Assembly: GCF_900774055.1 (NCBI RefSeq)
Contig: NZ_CAAGSW010000001.1
Location: 265,797 to 329,796, forward strand
DNA from: Methanococcoides sp. AM1
GTDB taxonomy: Archaea > Halobacteriota > Methanosarcinia > Methanosarcinales > Methanosarcinaceae
DNA: 64,000 nt
Direction of reading: 5' to 3'
Positions 7,353-14,068 of this stretch are shown here, piece after piece. The translations under genes and the position numbers were made by a program. Positions within the stretch are counted from its first letter, which is position 1. The number at the start of each line of letters is the position of its first letter. Below the pieces are notes generated by a model. That model searched no databases. It was not told the origin of the DNA and worked only from the letters and a program-made list of their open reading frames with translations.

Positions 7353-8258
7353 ATGGAACCACTCATGGGCATGGGTGTTTTAGCACTTATGGGTGCTGCC
7401 GCAACTATTGCTGGCACAACTGAGGATCTTGAATCTGATGTCGGATCTCAGAGTAACCCTAATTCACAAGTGCAATTAGCACCCCAGATGATGTACCCAC
7501 ACAGGATCTATAATAAAGCAATTTCCGGTGAACCACCATCGAATGCATTGATTTGTGCTATTGGCGGAACCGTGGCATCTGTATTGATGACCGCTGGTCT
7601 GTCCGTGGTCTTTGCTATCGCTGTTGGTGCGCTCATTGCTACATCAGTACATGGAACATATGCTATTACGTCTTACATGGGACGTACTGCAAGTCAGAAG
7701 CGTTTCAGACAACCAATATATCTTGATATTATCCGATCACACACGCCGGTGATCATGGGATATGCATTCATTACAACATTCTGTATCCTTGTTGTATCAT
7801 ACATTATGGTAGCTGTTCTCGGACACCCATTCCCACTTGCACTTATTGCATTCATATGGGGAATCACCGTCGGAGCTATCGGTTCATCAACTGGTGATGT
7901 TCACTATGGTGCAGAACGTGAGTTCCAGAACGTCGAGTTCGGATCAGGTCTTAATGCTGCAAACTCCGGTAACATTGTAAGGAAAGCAGAATCAGGACTT
8001 CGTAACGGTATAGACAACTCATGGTTCTGTGCAAAGTTCGGAGGACCAGTAACTGGTCTCGCATTCGGTATGACCGTTTTCTTAAGCGGTTGGGTAACAG
8101 CAGTTTTTGATCCTGCAATAAGCATCACAATGGGATGGCTTTCAGTTGTAGCAGGAGCAGTTATTGTATTACTTATGATCATCTGGAACAGAAGGATCGA
8201 AGTAGCAGCACGTGAGGCATACGGACCTTACAAGGAAGACGAGGAGGTCGCTGCATGA
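7353..8258 (+). CDS. mtrE: Tetrahydromethanopterin S-methyltransferase subunit E
   Basis: First gene of the complete mtrEDCBAFGH operon, 301 residues. MtrE is a polytopic membrane subunit of the complex that transfers the methyl group from methyl-tetrahydro(sarcina)pterin to coenzyme M and pumps Na+. The N-terminus is a glycine- and alanine-rich helix ([19 protein letters not shown]), followed by the conserved loop [22 protein letters not shown] segment and several helices. The cytoplasmic segment [19 protein letters not shown] is characteristic. A strong ribosome binding site fixes the start. Its last four bases overlap mtrD. Length and composition match the Methanosarcinales family. Confidence 0.97.
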
Positions 8259-8974
8259 TAGATATAGCAGGAATTCTCGCAGAGAATATAGCATACATAG
8301 TAATGGTCACCCTTGGTGGCATGTTAATTTCATGGAGTGTTCACTTCGTGCCTGTAGGTGGAGCACCTGCAGCTATGGCACAGGCAACTGGTATTGGTAC
8401 CGGTACTGTCCAGCTGGCAGCAGGAGCAGGTCTTACCGGGCTTGTCACCGCAGGAGCAGTTATGAACGTCAGCGACAGTGTTGCACTGGTAGTCGCATCA
8501 GGCGCAGTCGGCGCAATGATCATGATCGCTGTAACAATGATCGTCGGTACATGGGTATACGTTTATGGTGTTGGCGTACCACCAGCATCCGCAAAGGTAG
8601 ACTATGACCCGATCACAAAGGACAGGCAGGACCTCTATGTATCCCAGGGTACAGAGGGACACGGACTTCCAACCGTTTCATACGTAAGTGGTGTTATCGG
8701 TGGAGCTCTCGGTGGTGTTGGTGGAGCTATGATCTACTACGCACTTATGAGCACAAGCACAACCCTGAGCCAGAGTAACCTTGTAGCACTCGCAAGTATC
8801 TTCGCAGTAGGTATCTTCTTCGTGAATGCGGTAATCCCTTCATACAACATTGGAGGAACCATCGAAGGATTCCACGACCCTAAGTTCAAGAAATGGCCAA
8901 AGGCAGTAGTCGCATCCTTTGTAGCAACATTGATGTGCGCATTTGTCGGTGTAATGACAATCGGAGGTCTCTAA
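8255..8974 (+). CDS. mtrD: Tetrahydromethanopterin S-methyltransferase subunit D
   Basis: A 239-residue integral membrane protein, translationally coupled to mtrE by an ATGA overlap. MtrC, MtrD and MtrE together form the membrane part thought to carry Na+. Visible are about six hydrophobic helices, a central soluble loop ([20 protein letters not shown]) and the motif [18 protein letters not shown]. The glycine-rich helices are typical of this subunit. The neighbour mtrC starts two bases after its stop. Confidence 0.96.
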
Positions 8975-8975
8975 G

Positions 8976-9788
8976 ATGTCAGCAGGAGGAGCTGGTGGAG
9001 AAGCCACTGGCGGTATTGCACAGAACACATTGATCGCTGTAGGAGCTCTTGGCGGACTTATTGCCGCATACGCAGGACACTTGCTTGTACAGGCTGCAGG
9101 ACCAGCATTCGCATTTATTGGCGCTCTTGGAGCGATCTGTGCGATCGTATGGGGTGCCGCAGCAGTAAGACGTGTAGCAAGCTACGGTCTTGGTACCGGT
9201 GTACCATCCATTGGTATGATGGCACTTGGTATGGGAGTTGTCGCATCTATGTTCGGACTTGCCGTTGGTGGCATTGCCGGACCTATCGTCGCATTCATCA
9301 CAGCATCCATCATTGGACTCGTCATTGGTGCACTCGCTAACAGGGTACTTGGAATGGGCATTCCTATAATGGAGCAGTCCATGACAGAGATCGCTGGTGC
9401 AGGCGCACTTACCATCATTGGACTCAGTGTCGCAATGACTGGAACTTTCATGTTCGATGCTGTACTGGAAACCGTTGTTGCAACAGGATACATCGCTGTG
9501 ATCTTTATCGCAGGCGGTATGGCGATCCTTCACCCATTCAATGCAAACCTCGGTCCTGATGAAAAGCAGGACAGAACACTCACAACAGGTGTTGAGAAAG
9601 GTGCTATCGCAATGATCATTGCAGGTATCGTCGCAACTGTATCAACCGATGCATCAGCTATACCAACTATCGTGATCGGTATTGCTCTGTGGTATGTTGC
9701 ATTCAGGAAATACGTTGAACTCGTTAACAGGGACGCATACAAGGTACTTGGAACAGGTCTCCTGCCAACCGAGGAGGAATTAGAATGA
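8976..9788 (+). CDS. mtrC: Tetrahydromethanopterin S-methyltransferase subunit C
   Basis: A 270-residue, strongly hydrophobic membrane subunit with about seven helices, rich in Gly, Ala and Ile. The soluble C-terminal part includes [18 protein letters not shown] and ends in an acidic tail before the stop, which overlaps mtrB by 4 bases. It belongs to the Na+-translocating membrane portion of the complex. The long reverse-strand frame under this gene is a cysteine-rich artefact of the codon bias. Confidence 0.96.
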
Positions 9789-10108
9789 GCATGGTACACG
9801 TAGCACCAGAAGCACATCTTGTACTGGACCCACTTACATCAGTCCTTGCAGAAGAGCGTGAAGACATCATCTGTTACTCAATGGATCCAGTAATGGAACA
9901 GATCGATGAACTTGACAAGATCGCTGATGATCTGATCAATTCACTCTCACCTGACAGAAAGCTATTGAACTCATACCCAGGCAGGGAACAGACAGCACTC
10001 AAAGCCGGTTTCTACGGTAACACTTTCTATGGTGTTGTTGTCGGTCTCATCTTCTCAGGTATGGTTGCATTGGCTCTTTACATACTCAGTCTGATCGGAG
10101 GATTCTAA
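9785..10108 (+). CDS. mtrB: Tetrahydromethanopterin S-methyltransferase subunit B
   Basis: A 107-residue subunit with a soluble acidic N-terminal part ([16 protein letters not shown]) and one C-terminal transmembrane helix (about residues 79-103). This layout is that of MtrB, a single-helix subunit that packs with MtrA, MtrF and MtrG. It overlaps mtrC by 4 bases and mtrA starts directly after it. Confidence 0.95.
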
Positions 10109-10109
10109 T

Positions 10110-10835
10110 ATGGCAGATAAAAGAGAACCAGCAGATGGTTGGCCAACCCTGAAAGGTGAATATGAGATAGGGGACGTTCAGAACTGCGTTGCAGTCATCA
10201 CCTGTGGATCACACCTGCCAGGCGCACCTCAATTAGAAGCAGGAGCTGCCATCACAGGTCCATGTAAAACAGAGAACCTTGGTCTGGAAAAAGTAGTTGC
10301 ACAGATCATCTCAAACCCTAACATCAGATTCCTCATCGTAACAGGTTCTGAAGTAAAGGGACACATTACTGGTGAAGCATTCATGATGATCCACAAGAAC
10401 GGTGTCAGTGACAACCGTATTGTTGGAGCAACAGGTGCAATTCCATATGTTGAGAACCTGAGCGATGAAGCAGTCGAGAGGTTCCAGAATCAGGTAGAGC
10501 CTATAGAAATGATCGGTACCGAAGATATGGGACAGATCATTGCAAAGATCAAGGAATGTGTAGCAAAAGACCCTGGTGCCTTTGATGCTGATCCTATGCT
10601 CATCGAAGTCGGCGAAGCTGGCGGCGAAGAGGAAGAAGAGGCAGGCGGACTTAAGCCAATGGCGGCTGAGATCGCAACCATCAGGAACAGGATCCTTGAC
10701 ATTGACAGGGAAATGGTCATTGCCGGTAACTGGAACAAGTACCACGCAGGTGTACACGCGGGTAAGGTCGAAGGTATCATGATCGGTCTTGCAATTACGC
10801 TGTCACTACTTGGCCTATTGTTATTCGGGAGGTAA
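10110..10835 (+). CDS. mtrA: Tetrahydromethanopterin S-methyltransferase subunit A (corrinoid protein)
   Basis: A 241-residue protein that carries the cobamide cofactor which is methylated by MtrH and demethylated by coenzyme M. The corrinoid-binding domain shows [19 protein letters not shown], a [17 protein letters not shown] segment with the expected axial His, and [12 protein letters not shown]. After an acidic linker (about residue 170) comes a helical stalk and one C-terminal membrane anchor ending LLGLLLFGR. The last 25 bases of coding sequence and the following bases recur almost unchanged in the small gene at 12462, a notable similarity. Confidence 0.97.
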
Positions 10836-10840
10836 TTGAC

Positions 10841-11077
10841 ATGGCAGAAGAAATAGAAGGACAAGGAGTCCCAATGGTCATCAGCCCACAGATGGGTGCC
10901 ATTGAAAACGTTGTCGAAAGAATTCGATACAGGGCTCAGCTTATCGCAAGGAACCAGAAACTCGACTCCGGAGTTAATGCTACAGCTGCAACCGGTTTCA
11001 TTGTCGGTTTCGCATTTGCAGTGCTGATGGTACTGATACTCCCATTGATCATCTGGCAAGTAGGTGGTGTAATATGA
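10841..11077 (+). CDS. mtrF: Tetrahydromethanopterin S-methyltransferase subunit F
   Basis: A 78-residue subunit with a soluble helical N-terminal half ([21 protein letters not shown]) and a single C-terminal transmembrane helix (about residues 50-74). The layout resembles the stalk and anchor of MtrA, to which MtrF is distantly related. Position between mtrA and mtrG is standard. Its stop overlaps the mtrG start (ATGA). Confidence 0.95.
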
Positions 11078-11301
11078 GCGATGGAAAAAGCGCAACAGCA
11101 AGTGTTGTAACAGACCCTGCAGATTTCAACGAGGTTCTTGAGAAGCTCAATGAGATCGACGAAAAGATCGAATTCGTAAACAGTGAGATCGCACAGAGGA
11201 TCGGAAAGAAAGTAGGAAGAGACATAGGAATCATATACGGAGCAGTCGCTGGTATATTGATGTTCCTCATCTACATTTCAATATCCCCGATACTCATCTG
11301 A
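11074..11301 (+). CDS. mtrG: Tetrahydromethanopterin S-methyltransferase subunit G
   Basis: A 75-residue subunit: a helical N-terminal part ([22 protein letters not shown]) and one C-terminal membrane helix (about residues 51-72). MtrG is one of the small single-helix subunits of the complex. It overlaps mtrF by 4 bases and is followed after 14 bases by mtrH, which has its own ribosome binding site (aagaggta). Confidence 0.95.
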
Positions 11302-11315
11302 TAAGAGGTAATAAC

Positions 11316-12272
11316 ATGTTCAAATTTGACAAGAAACAGGAAGTATTCGAGGTTGGAGGCGTCAAGTTCGGCGGTCAGCCTGGCCAGTACCCAACAGTTC
11401 TGATCGGTTCAATGTTCTACAACAGACACAACATCGTGACCGATGAAGATGAGGGAGTTTTCAACAAGGAAGCAGCAGACAATCTCTGGAACCACATGCT
11501 TGAGATGACAGACGTAACCGGTAACCCATGTGTTAACCAGATCGTCGGTGAAACACCACAGGCAATCAAGAAGTACATTGACTGGTTCGTTGCAGAGGAT
11601 GATAAGACACCATTCCTTATCGACTCTTCAGCAGGTGAAGTACGTGCAGCAGCAGCTGAGTACGTAACAGAGATCGGTGTAGCTGACAGGGCTATCTACA
11701 ACTCTATCAACGGTAGTATCCATGATGACGAGATCGAGGCTATCAGAAAGAGTGACATCGATGCTTCAATCGTCCTTGCATTCAACGCAACAGACCCAAC
11801 CGTCAAAGGAAAGCTCGAGGTTCTTGAGTCCGGTGGCCCAGGTCAGAGCATGGGTATGCTCGACATCGCAAAGGACTGTGGAATCACAAAGCCACTCGTC
11901 GATGTAGCTGCAACTCCACTCGGAGCAGGTGCAGGTGCATCCATGAGAGCAGTCGTTGCTGTAAAGGGACACTTCGGTCTCCCTGTTGGCGGTGGATACC
12001 ACAACCTTGCATCCGCATGGGACTGGATGAAGGAATACAAGAAGCAGTTCGAGACAAAGGAACAGCGCAAGGCAGTTTATATGCCAGCAGATATCGGAAC
12101 AAACCTTGTCCCACAGACACTTGGTTCAAACTTCCAGCTGTTCGGTCCTATCGAGAACACTGACACAGTCTACCCTGCAACCGCACTCGTAGACATCATC
12201 CTTGCTGAGACCGCAAAAGAGCTCGGTCTTGAGATCATGGATGAGAACCACCCAATCAACAAACTGGTTTAA
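11316..12272 (+). CDS. mtrH: Tetrahydromethanopterin S-methyltransferase subunit H (catalytic methyltransferase)
   Basis: A 318-residue soluble TIM-barrel protein that moves the methyl group from methyl-tetrahydro(sarcina)pterin to the cobamide on MtrA. Recognisable segments are FGGQPGQYPTVLIGSMFY, a TPFLIDSSAGEVR strand, IVLAFNATDPTVKG and GLPVGGGYHNLASAWDW. It is the last gene of the operon; a hairpin terminator begins within its final codons. Confidence 0.97.
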   Translation: MFKFDKKQEVFEVGGVKFGGQPGQYPTVLIGSMFYNRHNIVTDEDEGVFNKEAADNLWNHMLEMTDVTGNPCVNQIVGETPQAIKKYIDWFVAEDDKTPFLIDSSAGEVRAAAAEYVTEIGVADRAIYNSINGSIHDDEIEAIRKSDIDASIVLAFNATDPTVKGKLEVLESGGPGQSMGMLDIAKDCGITKPLVDVAATPLGAGAGASMRAVVAVKGHFGLPVGGGYHNLASAWDWMKEYKKQFETKEQRKAVYMPADIGTNLVPQTLGSNFQLFGPIENTDTVYPATALVDIILAETAKELGLEIMDENHPINKLV

Positions 12273-12429: not shown

Positions 12430-12439
12430 TTTATTTATA
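12430..12439 (+). promoter_or_regulatory. TATA box of the MtrA-anchor-like microgene
   Basis: tttatttata is a good archaeal TATA box. Its centre is about 27 bases upstream of the ATG at 12462, which predicts a leaderless transcript starting at or next to the start codon. It lies in the otherwise non-coding stretch between the mtr terminator and the hdrB end. Confidence 0.55.
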
Positions 12440-12461
12440 CTGTGTATAGTAATTACAACTT

Positions 12462-12554
12462 ATGAATTTAAATAATTTATCTGGCACAATCTTTGCCATC
12501 ATCATCGCCTTTGCAATCATAATTATACTTGGACTATTGTTATTCGGAAGGTAA
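12462..12554 (+). CDS. 30-residue membrane microprotein resembling the MtrA C-terminal anchor
   Basis: The frame encodes MNLNNLSGTIFAII, continues as a hydrophobic helix and ends [10 protein letters not shown]. MtrA in this window ends [10 protein letters not shown], and the DNA from ttggNctattgttattcgg through NaggtaattgaNa is almost identical at 10814-10840 and 12529-12559. The peptide is thus one transmembrane helix whose end equals the MtrA anchor. A TATA box 27 bases upstream predicts a leaderless mRNA, which argues for an expressed gene and not only a recombination scar. I infer a possible small subunit or regulator of the Mtr complex. Small extra Mtr-associated proteins have, as I recall, been reported in Methanosarcina; whether this is the same is unknown. 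Confidence 0.55.
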   Translation: MNLNNLSGTIFAIIIAFAIIIILGLLLFGR

Positions 12555-12643
12555 TTGAATATTATTAAAGAAGAACTACGACTTCATAGCTGTGGCTCTG
12601 GTCACATGATCAAAAAAGTAAAGGTATAAAATAAAAGGAAATA

Positions 12644-13525
12644 TTATACGAATTTCTCAAAGAACTCTGAGTTCTTCGTTTCATTCAGGTCGATCCCCAG
12701 ATCCTCCACAGAGAAACCAAGAGCCAATCCCAGAAGCTGTGTGTAGTGAAGTACAGGAATATTGTGCGAGGTACCATGTTTCTCATTGAGATCCACCTGC
12801 CCGGCATCCAGCTGCATATGGCAGAAGGGGCATGCATTCACAATGCAATCAACGCCCACGGATTCGATCATGGATAATTTGTGACCGGTAAGTGCAAGAG
12901 CTTCATCAGGTAATGCAGATCTGACCCCGCCACCAGCGCCGCAGCACTCCGTCTTGTCAGGATATTCTACACTTTCCGCACCTGTAGCTTCCACAAGTTC
13001 ATCAAAGAACGATGGCCTCTCAACACTTGAACCAACACGTCCTTTAGATGGTTTCAAAAGATGACAACCATAGTGCACAGCGATCTTCAATTCTAACGGC
13101 CGGGTGATGATCTCACGGATCTTCTCCGTACCAACTTCTTTGTACAAAAATTCGGTGATGTGACGGACATCATGACTGCCCTTAATGCTCCTTCCGATCT
13201 TTCCAAGATGGGAGTTCACGTCTTTTTTAAGCTGTTCATCTGCCCTGACCTCTTGATTTGCATCAGCAAGTGAGCCATAACAACCATTGCAGATCGTTAG
13301 CAGGTCGCGGTCCAGCTCTTCAGAAAGTGCAATGTTCCTGCCGGCCAGCGCAAGCCAGGTGGCTTTGTCAAAAGAACGGAGCACCCCCGGAGCAGGGCAG
13401 CATGATGCACCTTCCAGGTCAACACAGTCTACTCCAAGTTTATCAAGACAGAGCTTTGTGCTCTTTTCAATACCTGGATAACGATTAGGGATGACACATC
13501 CCAGAAAAAGTGATACATTTGTCAT
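12644..13525 (-). CDS. hdrB: CoB-CoM heterodisulfide reductase subunit B
   Basis: A 293-residue protein with two cysteine-rich CCG domains, which hold the noncubane [4Fe-4S] clusters that reduce the CoM-S-S-CoB heterodisulfide. The first domain shows SLFLGCVIPNRYPG, GASCCPAPG and CNGCYGSL; the second VHYGCHLL, ECCGAGGG and CPFCHMQLD. The family's usual length is about 290. It follows hdrC by 25 bases in the same direction. No hdrA is nearby, so this pair would work with an HdrA encoded elsewhere. Confidence 0.93.
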   Translation of the reverse strand: MTNVSLFLGCVIPNRYPGIEKSTKLCLDKLGVDCVDLEGASCCPAPGVLRSFDKATWLALAGRNIALSEELDRDLLTICNGCYGSLADANQEVRADEQLKKDVNSHLGKIGRSIKGSHDVRHITEFLYKEVGTEKIREIITRPLELKIAVHYGCHLLKPSKGRVGSSVERPSFFDELVEATGAESVEYPDKTECCGAGGGVRSALPDEALALTGHKLSMIESVGVDCIVNACPFCHMQLDAGQVDLNEKHGTSHNIPVLHYTQLLGLALGFSVEDLGIDLNETKNSEFFEKFV

Positions 13526-13550: not shown

Positions 13551-14045
13551 TCATTTATCGGACATCAATTCATCGAACTTACATGATGCCAGCAATTTCT
13601 TTACCTCTTCCAACCCTTCCGGGAAACTGTGAACTGTAGGTGGTAGCGGATCAAGCCCCAGAGCTTCCCTCTTTGCCCTGTTCTCTTCATTAATGGGGAC
13701 GGCATGCCCATGTTCCAGCAGCAATTCCCCCACCGCCCGGTGTTCAGGATAAATTATACCTTCGTGAACAGCAAGTGCACGCATCTCGAATATAGCATCA
13801 ACAATATCTATGCCACGCGGGCACCTCTCCTGACAATTGTAGCAGGTAGTGCACATCCACAAGGAATCATCAGAAAGGACTTCCGGATCATTGCGTGCCT
13901 TCTTCAGGAGCTTTCTGACATTCAGGCTTGTATGTCTTCCCGAGGGACAGCTACCGCTGCAAACCCCGCAATGCATGCATTTTAGAATTGTAGAGCCGGT
14001 CTTTTCCATACGGGAAAGTACATTCGGTTCATTTCTGACAGACAT
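13551..14045 (-). CDS. hdrC: CoB-CoM heterodisulfide reductase subunit C
   Basis: A 164-residue ferredoxin-like protein with two [4Fe-4S] motifs, CMHCGVCSGSCPSG (near residue 23) and CTTCYNCQERCPRG (near residue 69). It passes electrons between HdrA and HdrB. The start is set at ATG 14045; one codon further up is only a TTG. A TATA box on this strand (reverse of attataaaag, about 14069-14078) is about 28 bases upstream, which predicts a leaderless mRNA for the hdrCB operon. Confidence 0.93.
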   Translation of the reverse strand: MSVRNEPNVLSRMEKTGSTILKCMHCGVCSGSCPSGRHTSLNVRKLLKKARNDPEVLSDDSLWMCTTCYNCQERCPRGIDIVDAIFEMRALAVHEGIIYPEHRAVGELLLEHGHAVPINEENRAKREALGLDPLPPTVHSFPEGLEEVKKLLASCKFDELMSDK

Positions 14046-14068
14046 CAAAGGGAGTTATCTTTTCATAC

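Follow-up and report, generated by a model that had tools for sequence, protein, structure and literature searches.

The Mtr complex carries out the sodium-pumping step of methanogenesis. In the Mtr structures of Methanothermobacter and Methanosarcina, the membrane anchor of MtrA is divided into a cytoplasmic section that forms the core of a trimer and a membrane section that turns outward, lies paired with MtrG and is in contact with helices III and IV of MtrE, with the N-termini lying in the cytoplasm and the C-termini outside the cell (PMC10998594, PMC12774963). Two small proteins linked to this complex were first reported in 2025-2026, both from Methanosarcina mazei (PMC12774963, PMC13370731). 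MtrI (MM_2401), a protein of 68 aa encoded by a stand-alone gene, places four helices on top of MtrCDE, where it binds cobamide via Cys40 and plugs the MtrCDE cavity; the binding to cobamide and MtrCDE follows oxygen exposure (PMC12774963). MtrR (ORF16), which has 49 aa, contains no transmembrane segment and is found in Methanosarcina only, binds the soluble domain of MtrA and has been proposed to tune Mtr through MtrA, with a link to H2 (PMC13370731). These reports bear out a statement in the preliminary description of the present locus, according to which an Mtr-associated small protein had been described in Methanosarcina.

The window analyzed here, a stretch of 64,000 nt from Methanococcoides sp. 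AM1, contains a microgene of 30 codons downstream of mtrH. Like MtrI, its predicted product belongs to the small proteins of Methanosarcinales that are linked to Mtr, the link being one of homology in the case of the microprotein. When compared by description, the microprotein differs from MtrI in having 30 aa, a single membrane helix, no Cys (in the window copy) and a gene adjacent to mtr, and it is set apart from MtrR, as that protein has been described, by its length and hydrophobicity. An identity with either MtrI or MtrR was ruled out by size, membrane helix and gene place. A search of the literature on small proteins of Methanococcoides found nothing relevant.

Location, promoter and resemblance to mtrA

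The mtr operon extends from mtrE to mtrH (7353-12272) and a T-rich stretch follows directly after the end of mtrH. The end of the microgene, together with the four bases past its stop, repeats the end of mtrA with 2 differences in 33 nt, while no such match is expected from shuffled windows (Table 1). This pair has no further copy within the window and its 22-nt core has none genome-wide, and the LGLLLFGR tail of the product is identical to the C-terminus of MtrA. The preliminary description had correctly pointed out that a 30-codon gene after mtr ends like MtrA and that the DNA match continues beyond the stop. Two of its broader statements hold in part. A match restricted to the surroundings of the gene end is what the 33 nt in the window show, but in relatives the homology spans ~19 codons and extends into the beginning of mtrF. 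Likewise, the view that only the MtrA anchor is encoded applies to the ~19 codons at the 3' side, but not to the 5' half, for which the first codons of a DUF4139 gene are the most probable source.

Table 1 Features of the microgene locus and its parent genes in the window.
Feature	Position	Strand	Evidence or remark
Microgene ORF, 30 codons and stop, one predicted membrane helix	12462..12554	+	ORF reading and orthologues; omega 0.43, p=0.0016
TATA box TTTATTTATA, 22 nt ahead of ATG	12430..12439	+	Similar box and spacing in all ten copies; unique in window
ORF 5' part, ~12 codons, putatively from DUF4139 gene start; junction approximate	12462..12497	+	38/55 positions, with promoter
ORF 3' part, ~19 codons, putatively from mtrA membrane anchor	12498..12554	+	mtrA homology in relatives; 31/33 nt at the end
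Stretch nearly identical to mtrA end, 33 nt including 4 nt past stop	12526..12558	+	31/33 identical
Matching stretch at mtrA 3' end	10807..10839	+	Counterpart of 12526..12558
mtrA, putative parent of microgene 3' part	10110..10835	+	PF04208 4.2e-86; TIGR01111 8.7e-111; PDB 9qtq/8q3v
mtrF	10841..11077	+	PF09472; decayed copies of mtrF start behind microgene in relatives
mtrH	11316..12272	+	Decayed copies of mtrH 3' end behind microgene in five relatives
hdrB	12644-13525	-	TIGR03288; convergent to mtr
hdrC	13551-14048	-	TIGR03290; convergent to mtr

The 30-aa product has no match to PF04208 or TIGR01111 and is too short for the 173-position domain. Since the defining corrinoid-binding domain is absent, the product is by definition no MtrA protein. 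As a separate observation, the anchor of MtrA itself (residues 209-235 of the product of 10110-10835) weakly matches the MtrF profile (E 0.074), hinting that the helices of the Mtr stalk are possibly interrelated by duplication.

A TATA box at the distance expected of a leaderless mRNA had also been claimed, and this was confirmed: the box lies exactly 22 nt ahead of the ATG, and the arrangement is the sole instance in the window when up to one mismatch is allowed (0.17 expected). The same spacing with a closely similar box is found in all ten copies of the microgene, in the DUF4139 gene of two Methanococcoides genomes (G001 and G006) and in that of the Methanohalophilus-like genomes. Direct reading revealed no Shine-Dalgarno-like sequence ahead of the microgene ATG. 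In Methanolobus psychrophilus, promoters are located ~19-22 nt from the transcript start and ~16% of transcripts are leaderless (PMC5378194). From these data and the TATA spacing, a leaderless mRNA can reasonably be predicted for the microgene. An origin of the promoter from the mtr operon itself was rejected, as the region ahead of mtrE bears no resemblance to it when compared by eye. Having a promoter separate from that of mtr means that the level of the microprotein can vary independently of the operon.

Origin of the microgene

In the relatives, homology to mtrA spans the second half of the ORF from end to end, crosses the stop and extends into the beginning of mtrF (68-120 nt, 75-85% identity). 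Behind this mtrF relic, five genomes (G002, G003, G005, G008 and G009) retain the 3' end of mtrH with its downstream sequence (67-183 nt, 78-90%). In the window copy, most of what once followed the microgene stop is gone. Judged from the matches in the relatives, the region behind the microgene represents a second copy of the 3' part of mtr, reduced in length. The mtrH 3'-end relics (L047 in G005, and L044, L045, L050 and L051) are 78-90% identical to mtrH despite the saturation of hdrB that is described below.

The other parent candidate, the DUF4139 gene, is located directly behind the relic in G001 (L043) and G006 (L048), between mtr and hdrBC, where it has a leaderless-type promoter and start resembling those of the microgene; it is gone from 9 of the 11 Methanococcoides genomes examined. 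Over the promoter and the 5' part of the ORF, the window copy agrees with the DUF4139 gene of G006 at 38 of 55 positions, in a comparison that leaves out the TATA box and the ATG, and the other nine copies of the microgene agree with the DUF4139 gene at 31-35 of 55 positions. As a control, the best among 2823 other ATGs in the window reached 26/55. The 483-aa product of the DUF4139 gene carries the DUF4139 domain (PF13598, at its cut-off) and an N-terminal hydrophobic segment, and is probably exported. An orthologue with equal TATA box-ATG spacing is present in three Methanohalophilus-like genomes (sister genus g16; L103-L105), downstream of mtr, past an oppositely oriented endonuclease-III-like gene and ahead of an hdrB-like gene. 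Methanococcoides and this sister genus have in common that mtr and an hdrB-like gene are neighbors.

Taken together, the match of promoter and 5' part to the DUF4139 gene, the mtrA anchor that follows and the mtrF and mtrH relics behind it would identify the locus as the joint of a tandem duplication, and a fusion of the DUF4139 start with the mtrA end is very probably the origin of the microgene. In an ancestor of Methanococcoides, the duplicated segment would have begun within the mtrA anchor, comprised mtrF, mtrG and mtrH and ended shortly after the start of the DUF4139 gene. At the joint, the leaderless promoter, the start and ~12 codons of the DUF4139 gene would have been fused in frame, near codon 12, to the last ~19 codons of mtrA, and the predicted order after the duplication would be the DUF4139 promoter and start with the mtrA tail, mtrF, mtrG, mtrH and an intact DUF4139 gene. 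Afterwards, the remainder of the extra copy would have decayed and the DUF4139 gene would have been lost in most species, with the promoter and the microgene being kept. As the joint is common to both clades of the genus, a single early origin is likely. Whatever its function, the locus offers an unusually readable case in which the joint of a duplication would have given rise to a microgene in a single step: promoter and start were apparently taken from one gene and the membrane helix from another, both parents are found in living relatives, and later losses are still visible.

Conservation, constraint and rival explanations

The microgene locus is found directly behind mtrH in 10 of the 11 Methanococcoides genomes examined. 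Conservation at the same place, which had been named as the support to look for, was thus observed, and it is accompanied by constraint at the protein level. Absence or frameshifts in close relatives, which had been named as counterevidence, were encountered in a minority: start and frame are intact in eight copies, while the microgene is deleted in G004 with its flanks joined, is frameshifted in G001 by two missing bases near its end that alter the tail, and has ATA in place of its start codon in G003. The gene is therefore dispensable in some lineages. When a profile of the peptide was run against 101 genomes from elsewhere in the family, the matches were essentially limited to MtrA itself and to weak, unrelated ones, and among the genomes searched the microgene is confined to Methanococcoides within its family.

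Several lines of evidence indicate that the microgene is probably a constrained protein-coding gene. In a codon model of nine copies, omega was 0.43 when compared with 1 (p=0.0016), and in clade B, which holds the window copy, it was 0.37 (p=0.013); in clade A alone constraint was not significant (omega 0.80, p=0.64). Between distant lineages, dN/dS of the microgene is mostly 0.1-0.4, the substitutions favor third positions and synonymous changes, and the sole indel among the frame-intact copies consists of three bases. Neutral simulations were run along the fitted tree from four extant copies as starting points, with 3000 runs each. All nine frames remained stop-free in 4-13% of runs, a result that alone is not decisive. 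The retained hydrophobicity exceeded that of the simulations (p<=0.01), polar residues in the helix numbered 1 against ~15 expected (p<=0.001), and an invariance at 7 of the last 8 residues, as seen in the genomes, was reached in 0 of 3000 runs from each of the four starts. Compared with each genome's own mtrA, the tail shows 24 synonymous and 2 non-synonymous differences, counts that are summed over genomes with a shared history and are not independent.

The upstream region is conserved as well. Among the compared pairs, identity is 56-79% from TATA box to ATG and 68-82% in the ORF, and both regions are better conserved than the spacer (37-57%) and the sequence after the stop (31-50%), for which the values are those of the more distant pairs. 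Between the two clades, synonymous sites of the nearby hdrB have reached saturation, so that a promoter and 5' half out of use would be expected to have vanished by now. Nor is there an obvious source from which gene conversion could have restored these parts in nine genomes, where the DUF4139 gene is gone. A difficulty is posed by the mtrF and mtrH relics: given the saturated hdrB, neutral sequence that predates the split of the clades should resemble mtr less than they do. The simplest explanation would be gene conversion with the intact operon genes as donors. The tail of the microgene could owe part of its preservation to conversion from mtr as well, and this weakens tail identity as evidence, but it leaves intact the synonymous bias in the tails of G007 and G010 and the conservation of the 5' half.

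Such conversion is part of one alternative, in which the microgene would be a decaying relic, a leftover of the duplication joint that has stayed open by chance and through occasional gene conversion from mtrA and that has no present function. The position inside a decayed duplicate, the losses in 3 of 11 genomes, the omega of clade A that does not differ from 1, the share of simulations from extant copies in which nine frames survive and the partly homogenized appearance of the mtr relics would all agree with this. It is nevertheless unlikely on balance, as the overall omega and that of the window's clade, the combination of hydrophobicity and tail retention not reached under neutrality, the almost exclusively synonymous changes in the tail, and the conservation of a promoter and 5' half whose sole evident conversion donor has disappeared from nine genomes would be left unexplained.

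Alternatively, the product could be a functional membrane microprotein unrelated to Mtr today, perhaps a short hydrophobic helix with a membrane or stress role whose likeness to MtrA is a birthmark. A promoter and 5' half taken from an unrelated, probably exported protein would imply a regulation that differs from that of mtr, and divergence from MtrA has been unrestrained in the first half of the helix. The part that has not changed, however, is exactly the MtrA tail LGLLLFGR, for which a generic helix has no need, and this makes such a role unlikely. A conserved transcript or promoter instead of a conserved peptide, for instance a short RNA with the mtrA-mtrF junction that sequesters a factor targeting mtr mRNA, is very improbable. 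Although in most relatives the copied stretch continues beyond the stop and includes the beginning of mtrF, the window copy is without most of this sequence, no Rfam family reached the threshold in a search of the locus, and both the preference of distant-lineage substitutions for third positions and synonymous changes and the single three-base indel point to a peptide.

Possible action on Mtr and comparison with known systems

The most far-reaching reading, at a probability of roughly 0.4, is that the microgene encodes a Methanococcoides-specific subunit of Mtr with a regulatory or structural role that would be new to the complex, a mimic of the MtrA anchor that would compete with it or replace it in the stalk and that would be expressed from the promoter of an unrelated gene. 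For an action on Mtr of any kind, which is the reading we prefer and which the retained anchor homology suggests, the odds appear about even. Most likely, the microprotein would insert as a single helix with the orientation of MtrA; in the window copy there is no positive charge on the N-terminal side and one at the C-terminus, a pattern that makes the orientation uncertain. It would occupy, or transiently compete for, the face of the MtrA anchor on MtrG and MtrE and, having neither the corrinoid domain nor the trimerizing cytoplasmic helix, would not join the trimer core. The assembly, stability or stoichiometry of Mtr would be influenced as a consequence. If this is true, the microprotein would represent a third kind of Mtr small protein, built from MtrA's own anchor and thus an in-built subunit mimic, and would provide a means to perturb the assembly of the Mtr stalk.

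In comparison with the C-terminal anchor of MtrA (MtrAc; PF04208/TIGR01111, PDB 9qtq, 8q3v), the microprotein shares the last ~19 residues of the helix, its tail being mtrA-derived. It lacks the corrinoid domain, the linker and the trimerizing cytoplasmic stalk helix (residues ~177-210) and has instead an N-terminus from another gene as well as its own promoter.

Outside of Mtr, single-helix accessory subunits such as CydX, KdpF and AcrZ have ~30-50 aa and are encoded by overlooked genes beside or near the operon of their complex. The microprotein resembles them in size range, in its one helix and in its operon-adjacent gene, the latter being a conserved single-helix ORF beside mtr that is kept in place across the genus and is under constraint, as would be expected of an accessory subunit. 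Expression and binding are proven for CydX, KdpF and AcrZ, whereas for the microprotein both are predictions from sequence, and to our knowledge none of the three is a copy of the anchor of another subunit in the same complex. By analogy, the microprotein would work, if at all, in the manner of these single-helix accessory subunits of membrane complexes.
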